This document shows, piece by piece, positions 3,001 through 61,069 of a DNA stretch of 64,000 nucleotides; the first letter of the stretch is position 1, and every line of letters starts with the position of its first letter. The notes below the pieces were generated by a model that did not search any database, was not told the origin of the DNA, and worked only from the letters and a program-made list of their open reading frames with translations. The translations under genes were made by a program, and so were the position numbers. Source of the DNA: Apostichopus japonicus (lineage: Eukaryota; Echinodermata; Holothuroidea; Aspidochirotida; Stichopodidae); assembly GCF_037975245.1 (NCBI RefSeq), contig NC_092572.1:1959501-2023500 (forward strand), written 5' to 3'.

Positions 3001-6000
3001 CACTTCAATTATAAAACTATTCCACAGTCCATTAATACCAAGTCAAAGTATATGTTCTCCTGCTGCTTTTTGGCGCTTTTCCTGAAGGAGAACAATCGGG
3101 CGGATATATTGACTCTAATAGGAGTATGCTACATACAGTACTATGAAGACTATTCACCAATAATGGTGCATTGGTATTTATTCAGGAATGACTACAGTGG
3201 AAAGTAAACACAAGTTAAATGATCTTGATAGTTTGAATAAGTGGCAATTATACATATAATCTGAGAACGTTACAAAATAGATATTATAAACGGTAGTAGT
3301 TTGTGAGCGTAGGACAATTATTGAGGACTGGACGAGACTTTAAACTATGTAAAGCTGTTACTTGCGACTTGTCCTAAGTGTGATCACGCCTCGTTTCATT
3401 TCACCACTGACCTTTCTCGTCAGCCAGCTTCAAGGATCTATCGTACCGCTTGGTAACTGAATGACATTAACATCGATGTCCTACAAAAAATTGTAAATGT
3501 GTCACTCTCCGGGCTCATATCCTCGTTGTCTCTTAGTGACCCCTGTATTTTTCGAATTGGTCAATCAATACAACAGTGAAGTCAGGAATGACTCTGATAA
3601 TGATCATACACTATGTTGACTTTGTGTATTGAACGTCGTCACCTGATTGTATAAGCAAATCTCGGAACGAAGTCATGTTAGCTTCATATTTATTTCATAG
3701 AGCTGACAACTAAGTGGATGACAACATCAAGTACATTACGCAGATATTTCGTACACAAAAAAATATGTTAACCCAATCTCCACTCCGCTCGAACTTTAAG
3801 AACGTTTTATATAAAAGAGTGAATAAAATGTAACACGTTAGTTTTGCCTTTTTAAGATCATGAAACTGTAATTAAAGTTGAAACGAAATGCTTTTTGCTA
3901 AGAACTGCAAAAGTAAATTGAGCATGCTTTGGTGCAACTCGACTGATTACGTTCCTCAATTACGACATTCTTGCTGATAATTGTTGAAAAAGTCTTAATA
4001 ACTCAATGAAATATCCTGTTTTGGGGTTTCATATACAAACCATTGAATAATAGTAAACGTATTACTTAAAACGTTTAACTAAGTTATTAAAATCTATTAA
4101 CTATTTTGTGCCTTCTTAGGAGCTGAAAGCGGTAATGACGTTTCTAAAGCAATAATCAACGTTTTGGCCTGTGCGACAACGTATAAACCCAATGATGTGC
4201 TCTAAGTTATCCTTTAATTAACAGGTAATATACGAGGCTGACAAAGATGACTCCATACGTATAACGTTCTAGGTTAGTGGACACTTGACACTCAATCCAT
4301 GTTTATTTGACCATACTTCGTAGCTTATTCCTTTCGGCAATAAGAAATCCACTAACCATGTAAGCTTAAAGACGGTACCAATTTACTCGAGGGTAAGTTA
4401 ATGATATTCTTTTCAGTTGGTGTGAATTAAGTTTTCTTTAATTTTTCTTTCAAATTAAGTATAATTAGCTTGTACTGCGTAGGAAATTTTCGTACAGTGA
4501 TAATGTATGAGCAATTTGTGTGGCGTCCTAAAACGACATCATTTTTGGCTGAGCAAATACACAGTCACATATATCACATAATAAGTCCATCACTAGTAAG
4601 CACAACGTCTCTTTTTATAAGTGTCTAATGGTTTTGTTTACAAATCTTTGCACATTTCTGCGTTCAGTGAAGAAAATTCTGAAATGTTCTGATAATTTTT
4701 GACAATATTAGCCATAATGGATGCGACCTCACGGCTGCATTGAATCTTTATTAGAAACCAAGAGAGTCCCTTAATCGAGATCATCAAGTATTTACAGTTG
4801 TTGCTTCAAATTTACAAAATGAAAACCAATATTGCAACACGCATAGCTCCAAAGGCTAAATACGTCGTTGTTTCTTTATCTAAAACAATTATAAACCCTC
4901 TTTAAATAGCATTGTCGATATATATATATACTCCATATCAATATTGTCAGTGGTAATTAAGAACGACCTTTGTCATTGACACATTTGCTAAGTAAATGAG
5001 AGAAAACACAGGGTAAAGATAATTTGAGGTAACCACAAGGTCATTGCTACATTAAGTAAAACTCATTTTGGTCATGAACCACGAGCTCTCGTTGTCATCG
5101 ACTACAGGGCTATGTGACCTGTACTCGGTGGGTGCGATGGAATGCTATCATTCACATACTTAGAGGACATCAATAAAATACTAATCACATGTGCAGACTA
5201 CGTTAGCCTTGTCAGCAGCATTGTCGTTTAGTAACGCATAACGATTGCCTATAAAAGGAAATTAGTTTTGAAAGCCAATTCCTGTTTTCGATAATAGACA
5301 AAGTGCGTTTTGAAAACAAGCAGATGACATTGTGAAAAAATAGTCGAAATTTGCCAACAACAAACTTGGAATCTCCGTGATTAAAAGGGCAACTTCCGGT
5401 TTGGGTACCGTAGTATCTGTAAAACTTTTTTTGAGAGAATACCCCACAACCACTGTTTTTTTGTTTTTCATTTCTTTTATAAGATTCTACCTCACAGTGC
5501 AAGCATTTTAGAACAGGTTGAACTAAGACGAAACAGAATTAGGATACAAATAAGAGTGGAGCTTTTAGCTGTAACAAAACAAACTTTTCACAAAAAATCT
5601 TTCCATACAACGTGTATCAGGTTTAGAAAGCTCATTCTTCCCTTTCTAGCAGCTTACAACGCCCAATATAAGGGCCTATTTTGGTAACAGTCGTAAGGAA
5701 ATGTGATGCAATAAATGAGGAAGCGCACAATGCGGGTGACTGTTGGAGATTTCCAGGTTTTCCAAACACAGCACAAGTTTTGTGAAAATATCAAACAAAG
5801 AGAAACGTGAAAATGGCTTTGCAAGTATACCTACATTATTCGTATTTTAGTTTATATATTTACTTCGGGTGGGAGGGGGGGGGGGCTGAATTGCTCTAAC
5901 GGGGTTAAGGAGGCAAATATCCTAGAAGCGGCAGCGTTTACATATAGTAGGTATTGTTTTGGAAACGATTTTCAAGTGCATGTTACAAATTGAAATACTC

Positions 6001-11998: not shown

Positions 11999-14900
11999 AT
12001 GTCTCACTTACGGTCAATGTTATATTGCTTATTCTGTGCTCCTTTAATCTTCAACGGTAAGTATATCCTTGCATGAAGTCTGGTTTCAAACAAATGTTAT
12101 ATAACAAACTGCTGAACTTCTCACCTAATTATTTTGTAGATGAACAAAAACGTGCAGCTAAAGCTTGCAATGAAGTCGATGAGACTCAACCATTTCCGAC
12201 TATCGTATGTAAGGTGATGCCTGAGGATCCTGTCTGCCTTGTTTGTCCAGTTTATCAAGACGTTGACGTGGAGTGGTTTACCGCTGAGACTCGAATTGCG
12301 TACGGAAACTTTTATGTGGGGCAATATAACGAGTTTAACGTAAACATCTGCCATCAGACGAACGCTTCTTTACGTTTTAAAAGTTGTAGAGATGAACTGA
12401 AATATTTTCAATGTCGGCAGGGGAAGAAAATTTTGGGAGAGTTCATTTGTGAACAAGAAGGTGAGTACATTACATTGTTTCTTTAGATGGTATTTGCCAA
12501 TCACATTGCATTGGATAGAGAAGCGACACATATTAGCAAAAGGCACGTATGTACCTAATGTTCGGAGTAAGTTTCAAGTATACAGTTAGCTCGTTGTCTT
12601 TAACATACGATTAAGGCTATATAATTTATTTTTAATGTTTCTATAGACAAACCTAAAAAACAATGTAATTTTTATGTCGTTTGTTAGTAGTTATATAAAG
12701 CAGTGCCTTATGTCACTTATGTAGGGAATGTGTGCTGAAGAGCTCACCGTATACATTTAGCTTAATATTTTTATAAAACTCGTGACAAAAACTTCACCTT
12801 GCAAAGGTACAATACAAACAACTGTGAAAAGCTGTAACATATATGTGTTTCTTTCTACCCGTACTTTGTGCTTTCAGAAATACTAATCATCGAAAGAGAC
12901 AGTGAAACGATATAAGATGATACTCTAACACGTCACGAGGATATAGTCATACGTCTACGATGCTTAGCTCAACGGGTGTTGCCACCGTTAACGATGGAAT
13001 GGTTTGTTGATAGTAAAAGGGTCTATACAGAAAGTTTCTTCCAGTATCGCAGTGAGGAGACTAACTTTTCGATATCACTGGAAATATATACAGGAACTAT
13101 AATAACGTCTATCACATGCGTGGCCTATGGAAATTATATACTAAATATGAGTCGTTCAATATCTGTCGTAGAAGGTGAGGACATTCGATAAAATTTTACT
13201 TTTTTTTCATAAGTATCATTTGTACTTTGACTGTAGACTGCTTGGTGACTCCCCAAAACCTATCCGATACTCTGCAATAATCGGACTTTCAGGTTAATGA
13301 TTTTATAGACTAACGACACTAGTAGTTACCTATTTTCTATGCTTCATTCGTGTGTTTAACACAATAACTAGAAAATTCACATTATGAACTTAGAGCTACT
13401 CGTTTATGCCACGTATATGTATTTAACGTATCCAGTTTACGACGGATATTAGTTTAAATTTAAATATTAATACCGGAAACATCGTCACTACAAAAATATG
13501 AACATGATATCAAAATGTTCAGTGTGGATATTTTTTTTGTCATTTTGTACTTCCTTTGAAGTCAAACAAGGCGATGCATTAGTGATGTATGGAAATAAAT
13601 AATGCATACACTGCAACTGTATTCACTATATACTTTTCATATTATTTCCAATAATTATCCATTTACTTAACTGCATTAAGAGAATCAAATTTTGTTCTGC
13701 TGACCAGCTAATGCATTCTAGGCAACAATAATTCCAGGCAACAATAATTTGAATCACAAAAGCAGAATGCTTCTCACCTTACACCAAAGTAAAAGATAAG
13801 TCTGCAACTGAATATATCGAATTTTCAGGATAGCTGCCAAATCGCAACACAACAACTACCTTAACAATTATAACTCTCGAGCCCGCAGCGATAGCATGTT
13901 ACATGTTGTGTATATGCAATAACAAATACAGAAAATCATATATAATTTTATATAATGCTCTACATGTGATCTTCAAACGTCATTCAATTCAAAATAAAAC
14001 ATTATAACCATGCTCTTTAATACCAAACAAGGTCGTATCATAACTAACAGCCATGTCATTAAAGCATGATAAATGAATATCACATATACTGCAGATAAAT
14101 ATTGCATTGTATTCAACACAATATTTAATTGACAACATGTCCTACACTGTAGCTGTTGGAGACCATATCATTCAGTTTTGTTTTGTGTTGTGTCTAACGG
14201 ACTGATCTAATGGAATGTGTGCTAAAATAGTCCAATCACTGTAATTAGTGACAAGGCTCTAAAGTTAGAATGGACAATTCTCAGAATTAATTGTATTACA
14301 GGAATGCAAAATGTAATGGTGGTAGCATAGTATCAATGTTTTATGCACACAGTCATCCTGTAAGTTATGAATAAAATCATCCTACAGGTTATTCAAGTAC
14401 ATATTGTAATATGTAATGAAAATAGGGTAACACCTACACAACACGAAGGTGGACAGTTTTGTGTGCCAGTGCGCTTACATAGTCTCTATAGTTTTGTGTA
14501 ACTTTGTGGCAAGACTAACGAACGATTGGTATTGAGAACACACCTTAACAGTTATACGAACATATTTGTATGAATTCAATATAGAATAACATACAATGTA
14601 ACCATATTTTTAATTTCATTTTATGTTCTTTTGTCTGGTATTTGCAATAGTATTATACAACATATTTTTTTTGACATAATTCAGATGTTTAGGTGGGCAG
14701 CATATGTCTGTGTAACGATATATTACTTAACAGGATATTGAATGAGGACAATGAACTATAAAAATGAAACGGAACACTGTGCTTGCCTATAGTCACCATC
14801 TAAACATCCCTTATTTTGTATATATAAGATACAAAATAAGTTATAATTTTTTTAAAGGTGTAAAAAGCCATACGAGGAAGTAAACTTAGTAATCTGATTC

Positions 14901-24973: not shown

Positions 24974-27900
24974 TTAGGTTCCTCCACATCGTTTAACTTT
25001 TTTCTTAAGGTGCTTAAAATGTATAAACTCGATATTACCTTCTAAATTACCAATATTCTGTAGTTCGTCTTTAGAAAAATTTTCTGGAACTTTGCTGTTA
25101 TGAAACCTTTTAGAAAGAAAAGGTAAACAGTTCTATGAATTTATACAGGCCGACTTTCTAACTTATGTATCGCATTTGGTACTCTTTATACTTCATAAAA
25201 ATGTAGTTTTGGATGACTTCAGAAAGGGCATCAACATATATCAATATAGATGTTTATGATTGTTTAAGGGGTGAAAAACAATTAACACCTAGAAATGTCT
25301 CATGGGTACTAACGCTACACAACACTGTAGAGAAAAGCGAAGTGTCCAAAACACATGTGGAGAAAGCAGATAGGATTAAAATCTACTTACTCTATTGTTA
25401 TCTTCATCTGTTGAAAAGTTCTTATGACAGCTTTGAATTGATCTTTTTCTGCTAAATTAACCCCGTGAAAGACAAGCCGTTCGTAGATGGTTGGTAAATT
25501 GCTCAATTGAACAATTGGGAAGTCTCCATGTATCTCCAAAGAACCAATCGTGATCTGTTGGTATAAAATAAAATTAAACAATGAATTTTTTTTTGTTTCG
25601 GCATTACGTTATTATATTAAAAAACAGTATTTTCGCCGTTCGAGTTGATTGTGATGTATTTTGAGGCACAAAAAAAAGAGTTTGTGAGGCTCAAATGCAT
25701 TCCCATGCGGCAGATCTGACAACAGGGATACTTGGCGTGTGATGGGTTCGGAAAAAAAAACTTCGAATAAAACTGAAAGATATGTGATAACTATGTCTGC
25801 ATTTGAACGCACACTCTTCAATATGAGAGGGAAAATGTTATGAAACTGCTTATCTTTAACGCGCTAAGCCTGTACATGTGAATATAGAAATGATAGATAG
25901 GTAGTATCGATCATAGCAAGATCTTCATGGTAACCCAGCATGTGTCCCTGCTGAGGGGAACATAATGAGGCTGATACGGCCAAGTTAACGCCATGTATGG
26001 CAACAGGGACGAGTTTCTTACATAGATATGCAACGATTTGACTGAGGACTTAAGCATATCGATCACACAATTTAAGAACTGGATAATTATATTTTATTTG
26101 AAACTTCTCTCTGAAAAGTTGTAAATTTCACTAATTTTGCTTGCTTTCTAATCCACATGGTTGTTTATTCTAACTATGAACAATAGTTGGTAACGATAAA
26201 GTTGCAACATATCTATCTCACAAGCAAGAGGAAACAGTGGTTCACATTTATAGCACACTATTCAGTGTACTTTGATATCTTTCTAATACAAATAAGACTC
26301 CTAAAACGTTTCTTTCATAAACAAATTGACAAATTTGACGTAGTTCGTTTTTTTATAACTACCAATCTATATATGGCGTTTGATTTTACTTTAATAATTT
26401 TTGTTTCAGAATTAATACCGTGTCACAGTGTATTAAATAATCTATTTCTTATCTGAAATAGTGTAGTTCGAAATTTTGGAATTTCAATCTGACAACCAAA
26501 CAAAGTCACCAAAATGTAACAAAATGAAACTAATGCAAATTTGAATACTTCAGCGATATTAGAAATAGCAGCACAATTCACGAAACTCCGCCTACCTGTT
26601 TTAGAAATTTAAGTTCAACGCACCTTATGCCCTAATCTGCCACGTGAAAAAACTTCTGGTGATGGCTTGTTGATGTTCAAATATATCTCAAAGGGGAGGG
26701 AAACCCCATTCAACATACAATCCTACCCATACCGGCAGTCCGTGACTTTAGGTTATTACTTTATAATACAATGTATAATTCAGGATATATATCGCAAAAG
26801 TTATTCACAAGGATGCTTAAGTATAATCTATATAAATAAAACAATACTTGCATTTTCTCTTTTCATAAATATAATAATCCTTACCTTTGTCTCTTTACAA
26901 CTCTTCAACAAGTGTAGAATTGCCTCCTGGTGATACTCATCTGGCATGTGCCTGAACAGTAACTTCTTCATGTGTAACATGTTAGCGTATTTCCTGTACT
27001 CCTCCTCATCATGTGTCCCTACTTCCAGCAAACATGCTAATAGATCAAAGTTACCAGATTTTACAAGAGTCTCCGTGCTTTGCGTCTTCTCTGTACTAAA
27101 CCGGAACAAATGATCCGCCAGTGGTTTGTTATCTTCATTGCAGTTATTTAAGTAAATAGAGGCAAAGAACCTTGCAATTAATGGAGATCTAGAAAGATAA
27201 TCACTCCATCCATCGGTAATTATATCTTCCATATGAGTTTTCCAAGCATTCGATATATCTTCTGAATGTTTGGCATTCAAGGGTCTTTCCTCAGGATCAA
27301 CGTCTTTGCCTTTTTCTTCGTGTTGTTTTTTTTCCAAACGTACATGTTTTTGCTTCTCTTTGTCATTCTGTTTACTTTCTTTTAGTTGCCTAAATCTTTT
27401 GAAGAACAAATTTCTGTGTGACTCAGTAAACCCGACCACGTCTACCCTTGTGTAAGTTGTGTTCATAATTTTTACGTAATGGTCGAGTTTACGGGAAGTG
27501 ACCCAAATGTTCATCTTGCTAAAGTCAGCAACATCACCCTCTAATACCTGCTTTATAGTTAATCTCCTCCCCTTGCCATCATTTGTTACAGTATTATGAA
27601 GCCTTGACCAATTGCTAATTCCATCTAACATCACAATGCTCTTTTTTCTTTGAAGTTCTAAAATAATTCTGTTAGCTTCTGCCGCAGACTTTTTGCGTCC
27701 CAAAAATGTCATGAGTTCCTCCAATATGCAAGCATCTTTTGGAACATTCTCAAGTTGAAAATAGATCAGAATATAATCTTTAAAAATTTCTCCTTTGCTC
27801 CATTTTCTTGACATATCCCGAAATAAATGTGATTTGCCAATACCAGGCTCGCCAACAAATAATACTCGGTTACCCTGGTCGCCCTTGGATAATGCAGCAA

Positions 27901-30900
27901 TCAGTTCATCGGCATTATTCACACGTGATATTTCGTTGTTTGTGTATGTTATCGTGTACTGACAGTCACTACAATAACTGTTTATTGAAGAGATATCTGT
28001 CAATTCTTCCAACAACGTCTTCTGTTTAACTTCTTTCAACAGGGTTCCTATCGAGAAAGAATATGAGAAAGACGATTATTTCAAATGTTTATGTAATTTA
28101 TTTCCATCAATTTATTTCCAAAAATTGGTTTTGAATTTACATTCAGCTGCTTCAATAATATCTAAAAGGTACAACTATTATTTACTGTCAACCCTTTCAC
28201 AATTATGAAGAAAAAGCGAGGTTGTTATTTCTGTAATAACAATAGTCTCTTAAATGTCGACGTATGATGTAACATGTGATGCAAACAAAATTTTGCAAAA
28301 AGAGCATCCGTCACATTCACCTATCACTTGCAAAGTACGACAATAAGTTTTTTTTTGTTTACATTGTTCCAAAACGTTACGAAATATTCAACCATTTCCA
28401 TACAATTGATCGTCAATCACCAAAGTTTCTCACATGTGAGAAAACACGCTATACTCTTACACTCCCTCTTACAGGACTACATTGATATATAAAAAATAAC
28501 AACGTACACCTTACTTCACGTTACTAAAATGAGGGTTGTGCTCTTGGCCAAATATATAATTGTCGATATGTCCTGTTGTAAAAACATGCTACCTTGAAGG
28601 AAACTATATTGTCGAGCTTCATTGTAACCCCATGAAAGAGGGTACATTGAAAAAAGATCAAAACATGGTATTTGCTGAATTATCGAGTAACACTAATATG
28701 AATCATAACATAACTAATGTATCTTCTTGTCAAGATGATGTGTTGGACACTAAACTTGTTATCACGTCAAAAAACACGACATGTGTTAACTTGTCAAAAC
28801 TGACATGGCACCTTAACACAATGTATCAATTAGTCGACATGCCGTGTCGCGTATACTAAGAAGGTAAATCTACAGCACTCTTTTTCCCTTCAGAGCCTCC
28901 ATTAATAACCGTGTACATTGATGTCACTAAAATGAAGGAGAACTGCATGTTTTTTTCTTTGCAGATGCAATTAACAAAATTCAAAATGAATCTTCAAAGT
29001 ATATACAACTTCATAAGGAAAACTAATTTACATATACCTTTCCATCCACCGTGGCGACGATGAAGCTTGTAGCAAAATACGGCGAGGCTAAGAGTTAATA
29101 TCCCTGAAGCACACGTTAATATTACTAGCGTTGAAGAGCTGATCGGCTTTGTGTTGTCTTCATCGCAGCTCTCTGAAAAAGGATCCATGTTTTTGGTAAG
29201 TACATTGGACGAATCCCTTGAAAATAAATGACTACAAGTTTATTAACACCCCCAAATTTCATAAAGTCAACAAGTTATCTGGTTAGTACAACATTTGGTT
29301 TGTAAGTTCTCAGCTATGTATTGAACCCTTGCGACTACCTCACCTACAGTGTTCTACTCGGAAGTCAAGAAGGTACGTAAGTATCAACTCAGGGATGACG
29401 TGTACTCACGAATGTACCTACCTTGTCTATCGCACCGCTAGTTATGAATCTTTTCAGGATGAAAAGGTGTCAAGAAGAAGGACTTCATCCGAATAATATT
29501 TAATAAGTACGCTTTGCAGCTGCATGTCATCACTCAGATTGTTCTGACAAAATGCGCCATGTTTTAAAGAAATGTCACCTGTTTTGTGTACATGTTTCTT
29601 TGACATTAACATAAGTTTCACATAATTTCGCGTATAGACAAAATAACATAATACGGACCTCCTTTCAGGACATCTAAACCAATGTAACAAGTATACATAT
29701 TTGTACAAATGGGGAAACGACAGCATAAACGAGTAAGTCATGCTAAATGAGCAATGCATCGCGTATTAAAGCGTGCACCGTGTACGGCATATCTTCTTAC
29801 AATTTCGAGTGGGTATATCCACCCTACAAGGTATTGAAAGGCTGTCCCGGTTTTATTATGCAAAATATGTGTTGTGTTGACAAGTGGGTCAAGGTAATCA
29901 TATCTCGTCTTTCACTACATAGAATTAGATATGAACTCTCAATAGCTGTGTTTATGTAAGATGTAGTGTGTAATTTGAATTTTGAAAGAAGCTTTCCAAT
30001 TGACATATTTGATATAGTTAGTTCGATTCTCTCGTAAACGTAATAAAGGTTGGTTAACTTACTATGAAAAAGTTAAGCCCATCCCAAAGTTCCCATCCAT
30101 CACCATATTCTATAGGTTTAGTCGTTAGAATGATTTAGAGAGTTATGCGGCATCGATATATATCCATTTTAAACAATTTTTTGATAAAGCTTTTGCATAG
30201 CGTTTATAGCCGATACCAAACAGCTGTCATTCTTGGCGACTGCAGTACGTTTCCCTTGATTTAAGAGTAGTTACTGTTAACAAATTTTCATGTTTGAAAT
30301 GGAAACACGTTTTTTTTCTTCAAACTAATCAGTTTTATCGTAAAGTCTCAATCATTTTATTAATGAAAAACCGCAAACAACATTCATTCTTACCGGACCG
30401 TACTTGAACTGTTGTATTTCCAATTGTCAATAGTTTGTGGTCGTAGAAAACAGAACAATTAAAGGTAATATATTCTGCACATGTTAATTCGAAGAGAATA
30501 GTAGTAGATATTTCCCAGGTATCCGTTGTAAGAGTCTTGATCGCTGATGATGCCGTCTCGGTGTAGTTAATATTATCTCCTTCGACATTCCAATACAAAG
30601 TAACATTCGGGCGTACCTGTTCTATATAACAAGTTAAAGTGGTTGGGACCTTTGATTTAATTGTTACGGTACATTCATCGCAGCTACGGCAAGACTGAAC
30701 GATAGCGCATGGAGGCGTCGGTGTAACTTTAATAAAATAAATATGAAACATAGAATGATTATTCTTAGTGGGTTGTGCAGCTAGATTTAATTAAAATAAA
30801 TACTTCTAATAATCACAATGAATGTGGGGGAACAGCGTAAATCTAACTTTAAAGGAAGATATTGTTAAAGGCCACGTTATGTCATCAGACCTCGATCTCA

Positions 30901-32428
30901 ACTTCTTAAAGTTCAGTTTTAACGTGAATGAAGTTATGTAAAGACTAGTTACTTCAAAATTATATAAGCGCCTAAATCTTAATTCTCAAAGTATAAAAAG
31001 GACTTAAAGATCAAACAACATTTTTACGACGAACATAATAATTGTAATACATTTCCACTTGACTAATGTAACATTGAAATTAAGGAAATAAGGTTATTGT
31101 CATCATGCAGACTCCAAATAACAAGTCTAAGAACATACTCACCTGTTATTAAAACTGAAATAGACCGTCTCCATATTGTGCCATTCTCAAAAATTACAGC
31201 AAATGTATATATGGCCTCGTGTTCCAGCTTAGCATTGATAATTTTCATGTTTCCTTCAGAGGTGATGTCATAATGGTCATCGTCATATTTCTCCCCACCT
31301 TTTACACCATTCTCTAATCTAAGGATTGGTTGAGTGTGGGATGCTGAACCCTTGTACCAATAGTATTTTTGCACGTTACCGACAATCATGCAGTATATGG
31401 TTTCTGTATCCATTCTTTCGACGCTCTGCCTCAAAGGACAATTTTGGCCAAAACCTGTAGGTAAAGTAATGAGATCATTTTAAAATTATCTAGTGGGTTT
31501 AAACAATGTTGCTTATAGCAGTAGGAATGAAAAAACTTAACTTCCATGGACATACTAACGATCAATTAAGTATCTTCTACTTACCGTTTGTGCATTAAGA
31601 TGTGATTCAGTTCAGAATAAACACATATCTACTCATTTCAAGCAGAGTAACAGTTGTATAAAGGTCATATGTCTGCTATTGGGGTTTCATGAAATAAATT
31701 TTTACATAAGATATTACTATTTACAACACTTAAAATGTTTCCTACATGTTTAATATGCTTAAAACTTTCCACTAGCACGTATTATTATTATTTAGTAAAA
31801 ATACTGTGGGCCACTTCCTTCCGTATGGTCATGGAAAAGTGATGAATGCATATTTGACAAAGATTAAGGAATAAATTACTGTCGCCAATGTTTCTGATAT
31901 CTCGCGAATATTAAGTTGTCACGAAGGAAGCAACGCATTGGAAGTCTGTCATATGTATAGCATAAGAATTTAGAGTGCAAAGGTTATAACAGCCACACTT
32001 TGACGTCTACATGTGTTTGATGTAACTGTGTACTAACATTGTGTATTTGTACATAAATTTATTGTTTCTTTTACACCTGTAGTGATATAGCTATATGTGT
32101 CTATACGTCGAAGTAATGTCAAACCATAACAACGTCCCTCAATTGTAATCATTCTATGAAATCACATGAGCTTAACACACATAGGGTTAGACTACAGTTC
32201 AATCTTCTATAATTACACAATTGATAATTAGTCATCAAATGTAAATTGTAGTACCAGTAAACATCATAAAAGTGAACAATTTCCCTAATACATACTACGA
32301 AATGAAGAGTTCCGTTAATGGGCGGGTTCAATTACAGGCACTCAACGGGCTTATCATGTAATGTACAATGTTGCATCTTCATTACCTTGCTCCAGAAGGA
32401 TGAATAACACGAAAACTGACCAAACCAT
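24974..32428 (-). CDS. Membrane receptor Ig-Ig-TM-NACHT-LRR-like (760 aa)
   Basis: Seven minus-strand exons give an uninterrupted 761-codon frame: 32428-32386, 31454-31143, 30726-30394, 29172-29038, 28047-26885, 25554-25391 and 25106-24974. Every junction has an AG acceptor and GT donor, and all phases agree (1,1,1,1,0,2). Residues 1-14 start a hydrophobic signal peptide. Residues 15-118 are a V-like Ig domain, 119-229 a second Ig domain, about 244-264 a membrane helix followed by HRRHGG, and 275-662 a NACHT NTPase. The NACHT has Walker A GEPGIGKS at 340-347, Walker B IVMLDG at 412-417 and the sensor-like stretch NIWVTSR at 454-460. A Lys/Glu-rich insert lies at about 494-538. Residues 663-760 are LRR-like. 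No death or CARD domain is present. NACHT proteins oligomerise on NTP binding. A surface receptor feeding such a switch is inferred from architecture alone. An acceptor-like AG before 32454 suggests an upstream non-coding exon. No start-to-stop defect was seen. Confidence 0.85.
26885..28047 (-). other. NACHT exon of the Ig-NACHT receptor
   Basis: This single 1163-nt exon carries the whole NTPase. It enters in phase 1 from the membrane exon and leaves in phase 0. The acceptor reads TCGATAG and the donor GTAAGG. Walker A, Walker B and the following WVTSR motif stand in the usual NACHT order and spacing. The first codons give TLLKEVKQK, with no in-frame ATG near the exon start, which supports the exon being reached by splicing and not starting its own protein. 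Confidence 0.85.
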
Positions 32429-43931: not shown

Positions 43932-46900
43932 ATGTCGTCAGTTCGGTAAGTTCAATCACAACTGAAATTTTATTAAATAATAATTGACATAATGTTCAAG
44001 GAAGGTTTGAATATCCGCGATATGTTTTGCTGGAAAGTATTTATTAATTAATAACGTTAGGCCTCAGTAAGCATAACTGTTGCCAACGCTAGGCCGAAAC
44101 TAGGAGTTAAGTCTATAGTAGCAGTAATACACACTTATACGACAATTATGATATAAATGTGTATGATTAGCTAGTATACTATATTCTATAATGTTGCGAA
44201 AGCCTGTGGTGTAGGCTAGCCTACGTCAAGTTTCTAGACACTTCGTGGACACGCCACCCCAGCCTGCATTTCGTGCACTCTGAACTGAAGAACTTCGTCG
44301 TGGAATTTACTTTAGGTCTTAGGCCTAGAAGGTACTTTAAATTCTTGGCGTACCTTCGGTGTGAGTATAAAATGAAATGCAGCCTGGACACCAACTAGTC
44401 CACTACCAACTCAGACTCGTCCACACGCCAACTACTAGTCAACTCTCCCTGTTGGTGTCAGGTCCACTAGCTACCAACTCGATCACTAACAACTCATTCA
44501 CTACCATTATACCAAGTAGTTCACTCCCCTATTCGTTAACTCGCCAACCCGTGCTCTACATATGCATACCTATTATCAGCAAACTCCAACCAATAACACT
44601 AAAAAGCTTCTTGTTGTAAATTGTACAGTATGCAGTATATACAGTAGTAAGGCCCTAACTTGTCCCCATGTGCGTTTCACTTACCATATATATATTTCAT
44701 CACAAGGGCAGTTCTGACATATCTTTTCCCCCATAGAGGCTAGGAGGCCTATATCATTTTCTTACATTGAAACATTTGCTGTACAGTGATGGGGGGGGGG
44801 GGGACTAACATAGCATATATGTTGTGATCCCTTACCTAAGAACATTTCTTATATCGGTCACCCCACCAAAAGAAAATACCCCACATCTAAAAAATTATTA
44901 ATTAATAATCAATAATAAAAAATCAATAATAAGCATAGCCAGGACTGAACTTTAGGGGGCATGACATCCAACTGTGGGCATTCAAATATTGTAGGCGAGT
45001 TGGTAGTAGACGAGTTGACATAGTGACTAGAGACTCTTTTGGATGAATTGTATCAATTAAATGCAAAATCATGTCATGATATTTAGAAACAACTGACCTA
45101 GCCTATGTTACCGATCGGATCTTAAAATTTGGGATCTAGCTTATTCCTATTTTCCAGTACCATATTGGTCAGAAAATAATGTTTGGCACAGGTGTAGGCC
45201 ATAATTGGTATTGATTGAATATTTTCTATTAGGATAATTGAGAAATATAAGAAAGTTCAACCAGACTTGACAAGTTTGTGTTGTTATGGGATAACTAACA
45301 GTACGGTACATGTGTTCCAAGTCCTTTTTTCACGAGGATTAACAATGAAGTCTGGTGAGTTTTGGTGACCAGCCAATACATGCAGTTGTTGAGTTCACAA
45401 AGAATGACCAAAATTAATAGTTAATAAAGATGCTCAAAAGTAACAGTTTTTATCATTTTGAGAAACTCACAGAATGATACAGCAATTTCATGCAGTTTAC
45501 TTTTTCATGCATTTATGTGTTATTAAAATTTGTTACAGTTATTTTCCATTTGTCTCATGCAGATATACCATTTCATTGAACAGGGAGATTGCCATATCAG
45601 CTTCTCAATTGTGCTAGAGATTATATTACATGCCTATGTTCATTTTCATTTAACACCAAAATTTCCTGTCCATTTTCATGATATATTTTACAAATGAATG
45701 TAAAAAAGAAATGAAGGAATTGGTAACATATTTTTGAGCAGAATTTATTGAACATCTAGCTGCCACTACCACAATGCTAACTTCGGTCATCTATCTTTTA
45801 CAACCTTGGGCGAAATAGTTAATAGCAAAATTTTCAAACGTATTAACAATATAGTTGACATTTCAAACTTCAACACTATGGTAAATTTCCCATGTTGTCA
45901 GTGCCAGTTCACCACACAAAGCTTTTTAAAGTTATTACGACATTATAGATACATGCATAAAAGTCCAGACAGTAAAATCACTTGTAACATAAACAGTTGT
46001 CATCGTACTTTCAGTTCAACAAGGAGCTTTCAAAGACATATCAGACAAAAGCATTCTCTATTTTGGGCCCAATATGGTAGACAAAGAAATGATGCAAATA
46101 TTAATGTCAACAATGATGATGAACAGATTGATGACTTTGAACAAGAAGAACATCCAAATCCTGTTGGCCAGTTGAATAATCCTAATCTTGTTGCAGTTGA
46201 AAGTAGCACAGAAGAGCAAGTTGCAGCATTTCTTATTGGTTTGCGAGAAAACTTTAAAGTTTGCCATGAAGCTTGTAACTTTGTTGCCACTGAGATGCAA
46301 AATCTGCTTCTCGAGTTCAGTGCCGATATGCAAATGAAAGTTAACTCTGCACTTCAAAATGAAAATATTGATCCTACTCTGATGGATCATTACAACATAT
46401 TTGGGGAAAGCTCCCTTTGGAGGTCATTGGATCATTTCAGTGATGCAAGGCATGTAAATTCTTTCTGTGCACAAACTTTGGATTTTGTTGAACCAGTTGA
46501 ATACCTATTGGGAGTTGGAGCAAATGGCAAAGAAAAAACTTTTCAATATATTGATATATTGGAAACGATCAAGTTATTGCTCAAACAGGATGACATTTTT
46601 GCTGAGGTGGTAAATGGACATCTAAGTCCTGACAGCTCCCTACAGGACTATTGCGATGGGGCTCTTTGTAAAAATAACCCATTATTGGCTGAATCACAAA
46701 ATATTCAAATTCAACTGTATCATGACGACTTTTGTGTGGCTAATCCACTTGGAAATAAAGTAAAAAATCTGAAGTTTTCAGCATTCTATTTTCTCATTGG
46801 TAACATAAGCCCAAAGTTGAGATCAAAATTGCATGTTATTCAACTGTCTTTGCTGTGTCAAACTGAATGTGTTAAAGAATTTGGACTTCACAAAGTGTTA

Positions 46901-49900
46901 GCCCCTCTGGTAGCAGACCTCAAAAAATTGGAAAGAGATGGCATTATTGTTGAGAAAGATGGTGCTGAACATAATATCAAGGGTACTCTTTCCATGATTG
47001 TAGCAGACAATTTGGCTGCACATACTGTTGGTGGCTTTCAAGAGAGTTTCAACACCTTTCGTCCCTGTAGGTTCTGCCTTGTAACAAGAGGGGAAATAAA
47101 GGAACACATGAATGCAAATTCAGTTACGAAAAGGACAAGTGCATCATATGACCAACAAGCCAGGATGGCAGAAAACATTCCAGAAATTGCTGGGATGTAT
47201 GGTCTTAAGAAATCATCCATTTTTAATGTGTTGCAGTATTTCCATGTAGTTAATGGGTTACCTTCAGATATTGCACATGACTTATTTGAAGGCATTGTAC
47301 CTTGTGTATTGGAAAAAGTAATTTTGCATTGTGTTCAAGAAAATTTATTTTCTCTTGAACAACTCAACACAGAAATTGACATCTTCCCATATGAAGGCAC
47401 AGACAAGGTTAATAAGCCTACAAAGATGAAAACTAATGTTCACAGGTTCAAAGTGAAACAAAATGCCATTCAAACATGGTGTCTTTTAAGGCTTCTTCCA
47501 TTGATGGTTGGTAAGCATGTGCCAGTTGGTGACAACATTTGGAAGTTGTTACAGCTGATTGCTGACGTTGTGGAGTTAGTTGTGGCTCCACACACAAATG
47601 TTGTCCTAAGTGAATTTTTAGCTGATTTAATAGAGTCATTCTTAATTTATTATTTTGTGTTATTTCCGAATGACTCTATGACTCCCAAGTTCCACTACAT
47701 GATCCATTATCCCCATCAGATGCTGCAGTTTGGTCCATTAGTGCATTGCTGGACATTACGATTTGAAGGGAAACATCTGTATTTTAAGGAATTGTCACAT
47801 AGAACAAAGAATAGAAGGAATATTTGCAAAACACTGGCAAACAGGCATGAATATTATCAGTCTTGGTTTCGAACTAAAAGAAATTTTCTTTCAAAGGGAC
47901 ATGTTGAACATTCTTTTGGCAACTTGTATCCTATCAGGTTAATGCTTAAGTCCATCCAGGATGTGTTGCTACCAGTTACTGGTGAAGCAGAAATGGTCTA
48001 CACAGCAAAGAAAGCTGAATGCAATGGTACTTCCTATTGGAAAGGATGTGCAGTGACAACTGATGTAGGTCCAGAGGGTTTAATTAAATTTGGCATTGTT
48101 GAACTTATTTGCCTGATTGGTGGTACGGTTTATTTTGTGTGTAGGCAAACTACTACATCTGATTACTGCAATCATCTTCATGCTTACGTCCTCAATGGCA
48201 CCGGCCAATATTCACTAAGAACTACTGACAGTCTTCTGGATCACTATCCTCTCAGTGTGTATCCATGCCAGGGAAATGAACAAAGTATTGTAGTAATTAG
48301 ACATTACATCCTACTACCATAGTAGTGCCTTTGGGTCTTATGGCTAGTTTTTGGTGACATTTAAGCATACACCACTGTCAATGGGTTGTAAACATACCTG
48401 TACATACCACCACTAACTCTCTCATTTGACTCAACCAAAACACAGTCGTGTATAAATTTGTTGTCAGGACTGTCAGATAGCCAAAAATCAGATTTGCTTC
48501 AACCTTCACAATATTGATTCACATTTGTCAACATTCAATAATAAAATTAAAAAAATATGGCAAGGAATCACTATGCACAGTTGCGTGCTTGTTTATTCTC
48601 TTGATTCGTTCTCTCTCATTAAATACAATCACAAATGGGACAGACAAGAATTATTCTTAAGGCTCAATTATTTAAATAAACATATATTATTGAAAATCAA
48701 AACAGCTCACCATTATTGAATGAAATTGCCACACTGGTAAGTGGTAGTTTGACTATGTGCAATAAATTCTGCAAGTAAACATGTTCCTACAGTAAATCCT
48801 AAATGGCACAATGGAGCGGCATTTAATTACCTGGTATGTGTTCGTTTTGCTATGAAAATTTATATCTTGTATTCCAGATATCTTTTCATGTATGGCAATG
48901 AAAACAAAAAAATAGAAAGAGAAGGCAGTAATACAAAAGAACAATTGGAAGTCAAGGCTTCTGAAGTGTTCCAACTGAAGGAAAAATTTAAGCTGCAGTG
49001 TTGGGATAGGAGCTTTGAAGAATGGAGGGACCTTGAACCCCAAGAAGCATTTCCAACTAACACAAAGTCTTTGATAATTTTGTTATCTGCTTCTCAATGC
49101 ACTTCAAGTTCTAATCGGTAAGAATTTTTGTTACTCCTATCCATGTCCAAAGTGGTAAAATAATGCCAAATTTGGCTAATTCTGGCCAAACAATGGAAAA
49201 AATAGTAACAGACGCATAGTGACTCAAATTTGCAAAATATGCTCAGCAGACATGTTTTTAGCTCACATATTAAGTGGGAGCTATCGTGATCTTACTGCGT
49301 CTATCCATCTCTATCACTCTGTCAACAATTTGTTTCAAAGTTACCTCCTGCATAGTGCATACATACTTGGACAGAATTTGATGAAACTTGGACACGATTT
49401 ATCGTTCAAGTAGGTAGGATTTAGATTGTTTACTACTGTACAGCCCACGTCCAGCAACGCATCACTCAGCCTATAGACTGTCAGTATCTGATCGACTGTT
49501 GTTACAACACCGTTCAAAATGCATTGCACTGACATTTAGCTACGAGTCTCATTTGTTTTCCGGGTACATTATTAGAAACTTTTATTTATATATTTATTTA
49601 TTTTACATTAAAGGGTATACTCGGTTAGCGTAAAGCTAATCTCCCCCCGAGGCCCTGAAATAAAATAACTAAGAGTGAAATGAAAAAATATAATCATATA
49701 AAATAATAATTATAATAATAAAAAAATAAGACGACAATGAATATAAAATAGAAAGTTTAAAAGTATTTGAAGACTTGGCATTCTTACACTTCATTGATAA
49801 TTCGTTCCATTCCTTAAGAGCAACATATGAAAATGTTTCTTGGTGATACTGGGTATTACCACCCTCTAAAAATGAATTATTTCGTGTGGTGGACCTTACA

Positions 49901-56960: not shown

Positions 56961-57535
56961 TGGGCAAATTACAAGAAATAGTACATTGATTCTCATGAGA
57001 CAACGCTTGCGTACATCGATGATGCATAGCATAAAAAACTGAGAAATATGAGTTCTGAGAAAACTTGACATCGAGAAGGATCTCACTGCTAGTATCAAAC
57101 GTACAAGTTACGTTACATATATGTAATCAAAAACAAAAAACAACCGAATTATATCAAAATTTCTCCTTTCCTATTGTTTTGAACTATTTAGTCCGAGAGG
57201 GATATGACCTAACCGTTACCCAATATTGGATTAATTAGCAGCGCTATTTGCTGGCAGCTCTACACATCTTACTCGTAAAAGTTTCGTATTTTATCTATCA
57301 AGATAGCATTTTCTGTGTAATGTACTTTCATACTTGTTAGCATAACCATCCTGGAGTTTATTGGATTATTCAATTTTGGCAAGTTGTGGCTGGATTTTGG
57401 AATAATCTTGAATATTTTTATTGCCTTCCAAAGGATCATTGCAAATTCTGCCTATGCACTTTACTTCCATGGCTTTCGCATTGCATACTCTAGTAGCGTT
57501 CTCCATTCTTTAAGGTACCTGGTATAAAGGAATCT

Positions 57536-60500
57536 GTGACTACTCAGCCATGTAAAAGACCTTTTGTTGATACCTTTCGTTTAAGGAGGCAACGAACAAG
57601 GAGAGGAACAAAAGCTGGTTGCAGGTTTAAAAGACCTATTCTATCTTTGGTCAATGTTAGATCTTGTCAACAGAAAACTGTAAGTAACATTTTTGTGTCG
57701 AGGGGAGTGGATTTTACCAATCTTGTTGATCTTTCTTTCTTACAAAGCGCTCCTTACAAAATCAATGATAATGATGACCGTTTTATTCAAACTTTGATAC
57801 GTCCAAGATTTTATCGCCACACACAAACTAGTAAAACTGTAACTAGCATTAATCTTGTTGTAATCAATTGCAAAGATGAATCTAAGGGCCCTGATCCTCA
57901 ACCATTATCTGTTTGTTTGATTAATGTTCGATCAGTTAAAAACAAAGCTGTGTCAGTTGCCGACTATGTTTCCTCAGAGAAAATTGATGTCCTTGCAATT
58001 ACTGAGACATGGCTAAGGGAACCAACAGACAACCATACATTACGCAATCTTGTTCCTAATGATTATTATTTTAAACATATACCTCGTCAAGCTAACAGGC
58101 CTGGTGGAGGTGTTGGCATTCTATACAATTCCTGTTTAACTGTGGAAGTGATAAGCTCAAATCGAAATAGCGGTTTCACTCATTTTGAACATATGAACTG
58201 CAGGGTCAGTAACAAGAATTCTCAATTTATTATGTGCGTCGTTTACAGACCCCCACCCTCTACCAAAAACGGACTCAAAAATACAGTATTTTTTGATGAA
58301 TGGTCGCAATTTTTGGAGAGTCTTGCCTCGTCCATTGATAAGGTTGTTATTGTTGGCGATGTTAATTTTCATCTCGATAAAGCAAATGATCTTAGTGCCA
58401 AGCGGTTCTGCAATTTGCTTAATGCTTACAGTTTTGTGCAAAACATTACTGGACCCACCCAACGTGCGGGCCACACACTAGACACTGTTATAACCAACGA
58501 GTCCGCATCGAGTGGTTTTCTTTCTGGATCTCCGATAATCACCGATCCTAATCTTGGTGATGCCAATGGAAACTTAACCTGCGACCACTATGCTGTGCAT
58601 TTCAACCTTGACATGTGTAAACCAAAGCATCCACGTAAATGTATAACGTACCGAAGGTATCGCTCTATACAAATTTCAGACTTAGTGGATGACATAAGGA
58701 ATAATCCCGAGCTGATGGTTACGAATCGTTCATTATGTGATTTGGTTGACATTTACAATAGCCAGTTGACACGCCTAATGGATATTCATGCACCAATAAT
58801 CACGAAGTATATCACATTGCGCCCTAATGCACCTTGGTATTCTGATAGATTGAGAGATGCGAAACATAAGCGCCGTAAAGCTGAAAGAGTCTGGAGAAAA
58901 TCAAAACTTACTGTTCATTTTCTGATTTACAAACAATCGTGCCGCAATGTAAGTAAATTACTTGTCAAAGAAAAACAAAACTATTACTCAACTAAGATTA
59001 CTGAATGTGGTAACGACATGAAGCAACTCTTTCAATTGACTCGCCACATTATGGGAGAAAATAGTAGCTTAACCTTGCCCGATCACACCTCGGCCGAGAA
59101 TCTCGCAAATCAATTCAATGAGTTTTTCATAGATAAAGTTGCTTCCATTCACCAACGTTTCGATAATAACGTCAGTTGGACGGACATAATGGAAGCCGAT
59201 GTTACCTTTAATGGAGAATGCCTTTCACAATTTGAACCCACCAATGAGACTGAGATACGGGAATTAATTCTTCGTGTACCAAATAAATCGTGTTCTATGG
59301 ATCCTTTGCCAACATGGATATTGAAGAGGTGTGTTGATGTTTTGCTCCCAATTATTACAGCCATTGTTAATAAATCCCTAGCCGAGTCTCTCGTTCCGCC
59401 ATCATTCAAACAGTCGTGTGTAACTCCACTCCTGAAAAAAAACTGGACTGAACAAAGACTCTCTTTTAAATTACCGACCTGTTTCGCAATTACCATTTGT
59501 GTCGAAATTAGTTGAAAGAGTCGTTGCAAACAGATTAAGTCACCACCTAGCTGTAAATGCACTGCACGATACCTACCAGTCTGCCTACAGGCAACATCAC
59601 TCAACGGAGTCCGCTCTTTTGAAGGTGCAGAACGACATAGCAGTTTCACTTGATTCGAAGTTTAATGTGGCTCTTATCTTACTTGACTTGTCCGCTGCTT
59701 TCGATGTCATCGACCACCAAATTTTGTTTTAACGTCTGGAAAAAACTTTTGGGGTTACACTAAATGCATTCAGCTGGTTTAAATCTTATATGACAGGAAG
59801 AAAGCAATGGGTCAAAATTGGCCAGACTTCGTCGACAGCTGTACAACTTAGCACTGGCGTCCCACAAGGCTCAGTACTTGGCCCCATCATTTATTGTATG
59901 TTCACCAAACCACTGTGTGAAATCATAAAGCGTCACCAAGTCCACTACCACTGCTACGCCGATGATACGCAACTCTGTTTACAGTTCGATCCCAAAATGC
60001 CATGACAGAAATACAAGAAAAGTTGCAGGAATGTGTAAACAATGTTGGGATGTGGTTGAGGAGAAACAAACTTATGTTAAATGATGTTAAAACGGAACTT
60101 ATTATTTTTTCACCTAAAACCCAATTGAAAGACGATGTAACTCCGCACATTACAGTTGGGCACAATACCATTTATCCTGCATCTATTGTTAAGAATTTAG
60201 GAGTTTACTTTGACTCTCATCTTACCATGGAGACCCAAGTTAATCATATTATCAAGTCTTGCTATTTCCATATTCGTAATATAGGTAGAATAAGAGATTT
60301 CATTACAACTGATGCATGTAAAATACTGGTTGAACCCCTCGTTACCTCTCGCTTCGATTATTGCAATTCTTTACTATTTGGTATTTCACAGTCTCTAACA
60401 AACCGCCTACAACGCACACAAAATTGTGCAGCTCGCCTTATATCTAGAACTCCTCGTCGCAACCATATATCTCCTGTACTGTATGAACTACATTGGTTAC

Positions 60501-61069
60501 CTGTACGTTTTAGATCAAAATTTAAGATTCTTTTTCTTACCTTTAAGGCTCTTAATCACTTGACCCCTAGTTACATCACCAATGAGACCATACCTTATAT
60601 TCCGCCTAGATCCTTACGCTCATTGAATAAAAATTTACTTAGTGTGCCTTCTACCCGATCATCAACATATGAATTTAAACGTTTTGATTATACTGCTGCC
60701 ACATTATGGAATAATTTACCCCAGGGCATATGCAATATTAATATAGACTTAACGCTATTCAAGAAATTACTTAAAACACTGTTTTTCAGAGCTGCCAACA
60801 CAGATTAATGTACTTATTTTATACTTGCTGTACATACTTAATTTATGTGTTATTATTGTATTTTAGTCATAATTTTTCTATTTATTTTTCTATTTATGTT
60901 TTAATATTTCTATTTTTCTATACAATCTTAACTTTTATATCCTTTTTAACTCTTTTTTTACTTTTAACAAATTTTTTATCTTTTGCTGTAAAGCGCTTTA
61001 GAGCAATTTTTTAATTGAATAAGGCGCTATATAAATCTCGTGTAATAATAATAAAAAAAAATAATAATA
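57536..61069 (+). mobile_element. Broken non-LTR retrotransposon (L2/CR1-like LINE)
   Basis: An endonuclease comes first (NVRSVKNKA, ITETWL, GGVGILY, VVYRPPP, VIVGDVNFHLD, then CDHYAVHF at the usual SDH position). A reverse transcriptase follows with LILLDLSAAFDVID, GVPQGSVLGP and YADDTQL, then a LINE-type C-terminus. The frame shifts at the A-run at 59434-59441, has a stop TAA at 59730-59732, and shifts again near 60000, so it cannot make one protein. No ATG opens the frame near 57536, and the true 5' end is uncertain. The 3' end 'aaggcgctatataaat' followed by AAT repeats near 61046-61069 is the sort seen in L2-type elements. Clade assignment within the jockey superfamily is tentative. Confidence 0.8.

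Follow-up and report, generated by a model that had tools for sequence, protein, structure and literature searches.

Gene structure and domain composition

The window analysed here is a stretch of 64,000 nucleotides (nt) of the sea cucumber Apostichopus japonicus, taken from contig NC_092572.1 (here C12); coordinates are window positions unless a contig is named. On its minus strand, between 32428 and 24974, lies a gene of seven exons, which was rebuilt from the sequence and encodes 760 residues (Table 1). The product is predicted to consist of a signal peptide, a V-set immunoglobulin (Ig) domain, a C-type Ig domain, one membrane helix, a cytosolic NACHT domain, and a short tail. An ATG is present, the stop lies at 24974, all introns are GT-AG, and the exons leave phases 1, 1, 1, 1, 0, and 2. 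This rebuilt model bears out the seven minus-strand exons in phase agreement, and the 760-residue product, of a preliminary description of this DNA.

The NACHT domain scores 40.4 bits against a Pfam cut-off of 26.7, and its profile matches in the PDB include NLRP9, NLRP3, and NLRP1. The first Ig domain (Ig1) falls just under the Pfam V-set cut-off of 26 bits when the whole window protein is searched (23.1 bits), and just over it when the Ig1 exon is scored alone (27.2 bits). V-set matches at E ≤0.1 are found in all 12 Ig1 exons that were aligned. The second Ig domain (Ig2), which has extra conserved cysteines, gives a sub-threshold C1-set match in the window copy (16.2 against 21 bits), with C1-set matches at E ≤1 in nine of 12 copies, the best at 1.1e-5. 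In a PDB profile search with Ig2, the 60 best rows are all, by name, antibody chains or other Ig-superfamily proteins. The predicted structure of Ig2 has a predicted local distance difference test score (pLDDT) of 55, and its 50 best fold matches include major histocompatibility complex proteins, beta-2 microglobulin, and chains of the T-cell receptor complex, none of them at E ≤0.001; the modelled fold lends weak support to an Ig identity. Exon 4 encodes one transmembrane (TM) segment followed by the basic KLHRRHGGWK, and a TM scan between exons 3 and 5 returned this exon alone, its acceptor unchanged and its donor slightly closer. The occurrence of an Ig pair, one membrane helix and a NACHT domain in one model, as originally described, is upheld by Pfam, the PDB profiles, the TM scan, and the paralogues considered below.

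No CARD was matched by Pfam in the window protein at E up to 10, and there is no Pfam match in it to an N-terminal death-fold domain; Ig and TM occupy that place. The C-terminal end had been described as resembling leucine-rich repeats (LRR). Pfam finds no LRR match in the 760-residue protein at E up to 10, only 98 residues follow the NACHT exon, and an exon 6 profile retrieves from the PDB three sequences at E ≤10, none of which is an LRR protein. With no LRR match by either route, an LRR tail is rejected. Exon 6 may contain a degenerate repeat or two.

Both Walker motifs had been taken to be intact. This is true of Walker A, which reads GEPGIGKS with its lysine present, but not of Walker B, which in the window is IVMLDGISN and has lost the acidic pair that follows DG in DGxDE. 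The acidic pair is absent from all 15 loci of the cluster described below, where DG is followed first by one hydrophobic residue, then by Ser or Thr, and then by Asn, whereas DGxDE is present, by pattern, in seven of eight other NACHT loci, the eighth (L021) having DGLEE. In P-loop ATPases generally, loss of the Walker B acids weakens hydrolysis. Because these acids are missing, ATP hydrolysis may be impaired in the C12 cluster; the chances appear about even that its NACHT domains bind nucleotide yet hydrolyse it poorly. We found no report of an acid-less Walker B in an Ig-TM-NACHT cluster in open-licence PubMed Central.

Table 1. Exons and selected introns of the Ig-TM-NACHT gene, in window positions
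Feature	Position	Strand	Description
Exon 1	32386..32428	-	Signal peptide MVWSVFVLFILLEQ with the start codon; leaves phase 1
Exon 2	31143..31454	-	Ig1, V-set; phase 1-1; 312 nt, same length in 9/9 complete genes
Exon 3	30394..30726	-	Ig2, C-type Ig; phase 1-1; 333 nt, same length in 9/9 complete genes
Intron 3, part	29173..30163	-	Aligns with paralogue L002
Exon 4	29038..29172	-	Membrane helix, then basic stretch; phase 1-1
Intron 4 (TM-NACHT junction)	28048..29037	-	990 nt
Exon 5	26885..28047	-	NACHT and the sequence after it; Walker A intact (GEPGIGKS), Walker B degenerate (IVMLDGISNW)
Exon 6	25391..25554	-	Conserved 54-residue tail segment; 164 nt in 9/9 complete genes
Exon 7	24974..25106	-	C-terminal 44 residues and stop

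An array of paralogues on C12

The same genome was searched with the 760-residue query; the numbers of matches are lower bounds. Among the matches listed, at least 66 are to the window protein; every one lies on the C12 minus strand, 64 of the 66 between 1.12 and 2.21 Mb. Fifteen loci were compared, namely the window copy and 14 stretches of the array region (L001-L014). Exons 2-6 are complete and open in nine of the 15, the window included, with a single order, strand, and set of phases. In all nine, there are AG acceptors at each of exons 2-6, and the lengths of the TM and NACHT exons differ only by multiples of three. Exon boundaries were looked for close to where the alignments stop and in the phase predicted for them, a procedure that favours agreement; in the nine genes they fall at the expected base, apart from the end of exon 5 in five of them, which was set by alignment. 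As read from the genome, the Ig-TM-NACHT order is not a chance fusion of neighbours, because nine of the 15 loci keep Ig, Ig, TM, NACHT, and exon 6 in this order and in the same phases. Coding constraint is shown for exons 2, 3, and 5, whose ratio of nonsynonymous to synonymous substitution rates (dN/dS) stays under 1 in every computable case (eight pairs).

The other loci are less complete. L005 has a broken NACHT exon and no Ig1 match. L010 and L011 have a NACHT exon, upstream of which no Ig match was found, and L012-L014 have both Ig exons together with a more distant NACHT, broken in L014. A scan for the TM exon found it in L013 and L014, with a candidate in L010, and found none in L012 or L011. 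Among the cluster loci, an exon resembling exon 1 and having the same donor was found in L001 and L004 only.

The NACHT exons of L010 (C12:2.07 Mb) and L011 (1.46 Mb) are 42% and 38% identical to that of the window. Seven Ig-TM-NACHT genes each have, among the matches listed, a NACHT match of lower identity about 10-30 kb upstream, as if paired; of these upstream matches, L010 and L011 were looked at.

Comparison with AjNLRC4 and other NACHT proteins

The preliminary description knew of no named family with the order Ig, TM, NACHT. Such proteins are in fact already in print. AjNLRC4 of A. japonicus (PMC8699970, 2021) is presented as a membrane receptor with an Ig-like and an Ig domain outside and with TM segments at 483-503 and 776-795, between which NACHT (600-757) lies on the inner side. 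According to the same article, it binds microbes, dimerises after Vibrio challenge (which its authors ascribe to the Ig domains), binds beta-actin, and drives phagocytosis, its partners beta-actin and Arp2/3 leading to bacterial uptake. AjNLR-new (PIK48001.1), also from A. japonicus (PMC13133943, 2026), resembles the window gene, compared by description only, in having Ig, TM, and NACHT in one protein, and differs in its 1197 residues, its two TM segments, and its reported topology of Ig inside and NACHT outside. For the holothurian Chiridota heheva, PMC8913654 (2022) mentions six NLRs with other domains, Ig V-set among them, that had not been identified in sea urchin; the likeness here is a V-set Ig joined to NACHT, and is known from a count only. 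Canonical metazoan NLRs (NLRP, NOD, and NAIP/NLRC4) share the NACHT domain with the window gene, which is unlike them in having a membrane anchor and an Ig ectodomain, and in which no death-fold N-terminus or LRR array was found.

AjNLRC4 could be placed on contig C16, at about 4.50 Mb, by its ectodomain and quantitative polymerase chain reaction primers (two exact matches, and two with one mismatch). In its exon model, four segments were judged Ig-like by eye and are followed by TM and NACHT exons, which join in phase 1 as they do in the window gene. When a signal exon of 24 residues is assumed, the TM segment falls at its published place and the NACHT domain 25 residues early, that is, 92 residues past the start of the TM segment against 117 as published; the model may be missing a small exon. 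The small interfering RNA (siRNA) printed for AjNLRC4 has one match in the genome at ≤1 mismatch, which lies on C9, away from the AjNLRC4 gene. Aligned by eye, the siRNA matches the exon model, with two mismatches, at its spliced Ig4-TM junction.

In single pairwise comparisons, the identity of the window gene to AjNLRC4 is 26% for Ig1 against its first Ig (92 columns, E 3e-10), 38% for Ig2 against its last Ig (only 39 columns, E 1e-5), and 27% for NACHT (167 columns, E 7e-11). In exon searches, the best cluster matches to AjNLRC4 were L003 for Ig1 (E 7e-9) and L004 for Ig2 (E 4e-5). The two genes are therefore alike in their order of Ig ectodomain, TM, and cytosolic NACHT, in having neither CARD nor LRR, in the detectable similarity of Ig1, Ig2, and NACHT, and in the phase-1 TM-NACHT junction. 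They are unlike in their contigs and in Walker B (LDGFDE in AjNLRC4, LDGISN in the window). They also differ in that the paper on AjNLRC4 reports two Ig domains and a second TM segment past NACHT, and the exon model has four Ig-like segments. On this sequence evidence, the window gene is a distant paralogue of published AjNLRC4. The predicted gene is confirmed as real and as belonging to a kind of Ig-TM-NACHT gene that has already been described. The earlier proposal of a type-I membrane receptor, with Ig ectodomain and cytosolic NACHT from one gene, also stands, given that the paralogues keep the order and phases and that AjNLRC4 has the same order.

NACHT domains are abundant in the genome as a whole, with 106 scored matches obtained from 487 first-look candidates. 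Seven further NACHT exons were inspected upstream, where open frames of at least 62 residues were listed. L018, L020, and L023 have Ig-like exons and a TM-like segment ahead of NACHT. Pfam confirms the Ig in L018 and L020; the segment in L023, for which there is no Pfam match, was assigned to Ig because it resembles the others' last Ig exon, and L023 is probably also an Ig-TM-NACHT locus. L022 has a Death domain upstream of NACHT, identified by Pfam. Death-type and Ig-TM-type NACHT genes coexist in this one genome. There were no Pfam matches in the two upstream frames of L021 or the one of L019, and no Ig exon was seen by eye upstream in L019 or L017. The double-Ig exon of AjNLRC4 has further matches, among those listed, on C11, at C12:25 Mb, and at C16:41-46 Mb.

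Alternative readings of the locus

The Ig and NACHT parts could instead belong to two genes, the first coding for an Ig receptor that has a short tail and finishes with exon 4, and the second, with its start in intron 4, for a cytosolic NACHT protein. The frame of exon 4 does continue across the donor and meets a stop only after about a dozen residues; intron retention would thus yield a short-tailed receptor. Intron 4 was scanned for alternative first exons, and in the window it has 23 ATG-to-GT stretches in the needed phase, of which two have a consensus-like donor, but these two encode just 3 and 7 codons. Ten loci have both exon 4 and exon 5, and in these the length of the intron is 326-2667 nt. 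It contains no ATG-to-GT stretch in the needed phase in L003 or L009, where it is 386 and 580 nt long, and two in L004, both lacking a consensus-like donor. In the window, exon 5 has its first Met at residue 78 of the exon translation, past the P-loop lysine at residue 71, and a NACHT protein started inside this exon would therefore lose Walker A. In all nine complete genes, the next exon after exon 4 is exon 5, always in one phase, and AjNLRC4 as published (PMC8699970) has Ig, TM, and NACHT in one protein. Two separate genes are thus highly improbable. The junction between exons 4 and 5 is very likely real, and we are confident in predicting that the window encodes a single spliced Ig-TM-NACHT protein. 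It is also very unlikely that this gene is a pseudogene or an unexpressed copy of the family. Neighbouring loci are damaged, L005 and L014 having stops or frameshifts in the NACHT exon and L005 a second Ig split between two frames, whereas the window copy is open throughout, has good splice sites, and shows dN/dS of 0.24-0.64 in exons 2, 3, and 5 against L001, L003, and L004.

It is on balance likely that the window gene is a working member of an AjNLRC4-type family of holothurian membrane receptors, arranged in a tandem array on one chromosome. A number of observations weigh against this. Consensus-like alternative first exons of 3-13 codons occur in intron 4 of five of the ten loci (window, L002, L006, L007, and L008), and a Met precedes the P-loop lysine in exon 5 of four of the ten (L001, L002, L005, and L006). 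After exon 5, GC replaces GT in five of the nine complete genes (L001, L002, L003, L004, and L009), where the end of the exon was set by alignment. Some pairs have dN/dS above 1, namely 2.47 for exon 4, and 1.3 (L006-L007) and 1.03 (window-L001) for exon 6, although these exons are short and their ratios noisy. AlphaFold2, run on NACHT with 13 paralogues, gave a mean pLDDT of 43 and an unusable model. In the search with the seven exons as separate queries, Ig1 of the window did not find AjNLRC4 at E 0.5, and their similarity was seen by direct comparison only. The function is carried over from AjNLRC4, a paralogue that retains the acidic pair and shares only 27% NACHT identity with the window gene. 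Finally, both primers printed for the intracellular construct AjNLRC4-IN in PMC8699970 match C14:1474164-1477174 (L016) exactly, 3 kb apart. The gene at that position has a ZZ zinc finger, found by Pfam, and its first coding frame has no Pfam match. By its appearance we take it to resemble p62/sequestosome and not the C16 NACHT gene. The mismatch may be an error in the primer table or a wrong construct. The actin result for AjNLRC4 rests on this construct, and the discrepancy deserves checking before the actin model is extended to the family.

Mosaic ectodomains

L002 is closely similar to the window gene in its NACHT exon (83% identity) and TM exon (86%), but its two Ig exons are only 36% and 24% identical. 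At the DNA level, an alignment of 3.5 kb that starts in intron 3 and takes in exons 4 and 5 shows 78% identity between the two loci. The similarity starts at 30163 (converted from alignment position 4138), and upstream of this point, over exons 2-3 and introns 1-2, there is no DNA match at E ≤1e-6 and at least 60 nt. We infer from the alignment a breakpoint of ectodomain exchange near 30163-30394, inside intron 3. The broken locus L005 has a NACHT that is 89% identical to that of the window over its first 297 residues, with a second Ig of the L002 type in two frames. L006-L008 are 77-79% identical to the window in Ig1 and only 54-57% in NACHT. In exon 6, L004 is closer to L002 (89% identity) than to the window gene (54%).

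The low identities of the L002 Ig exons could alternatively reflect very fast evolution. The Ig tree is compatible with this, since the branch leading to L002 is long, and support for placing it with the window set is 63/57; exchange is neither shown nor rejected by this tree. The NACHT tree rejects the eight genes other than L002 as one group (approximately unbiased test, p-AU 0.013), a group that was named after the identities had been seen. The DNA breakpoint is better evidence for exchange than the trees. Against fast evolution stand the lack of a DNA match over introns 1 and 2 next to 3.5 kb of alignable DNA, and the L002-type Ig of L005 beside a NACHT close to that of the window; we regard it as unlikely. 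The copies in the array appear, from their mosaic identities, to swap their outer parts. An array of about 1.1 Mb, in which closely similar TM-NACHT parts carry two unlike Ig ectodomains and the DNA similarity breaks off in intron 3, was not found reported in open-licence PubMed Central.

Proposed function

By analogy with AjNLRC4, from which surface location, microbe binding, and dimerisation are carried over, the product of the window gene is probably a surface immune or recognition receptor. The Ig pair would bind a microbial or cell-surface ligand, which would bring receptors together through the Ig pair and so cluster the NACHT regions, and these in turn would recruit cytosolic partners for uptake or signalling. 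Because the Walker B acids are missing and hydrolysis may be poor, NACHT may act as a clustering scaffold rather than as a cycling ATPase. Uptake by the AjNLRC4 route is conceivable, though we would put it at somewhat below an even chance.

More speculatively, the C12 array of about 1.1 Mb might be a recombining recognition locus, whose chassis, without ATP hydrolysis, serves as a membrane clustering platform. If so, the phase-1 introns would let Ig-pair ectodomains and, separately, tail exons move between genes that share the TM-NACHT chassis. Shuffling would then be the route by which specificity evolves, much as it is in other polymorphic receptor clusters, with the difference that here it is tied to NACHT. 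The genome indicates that the Ig-TM-NACHT receptors of this sea cucumber form a multigene class, one branch of which is in a tandem array. This makes them a natural set for asking whether an extracellular Ig pair can control NACHT, and whether such control needs ATP hydrolysis, by contrasting the C12 genes, which lack the acidic pair, with AjNLRC4, which has it.

Other open frames in the window

Four further frames were noted, all on the plus strand. Those at 57497-59512 and 59966-60805 look like remains of a non-LTR (long terminal repeat) retrotransposon, with an endonuclease domain in the first and no Pfam match in the second. The open frame of 856 residues at 45752-48319 gives weak zinc-finger matches only, and is transposon-like by appearance. 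At 12061-12483 there is a cysteine-rich frame of 141 residues, which has no Pfam match and is Ig-like by eye.

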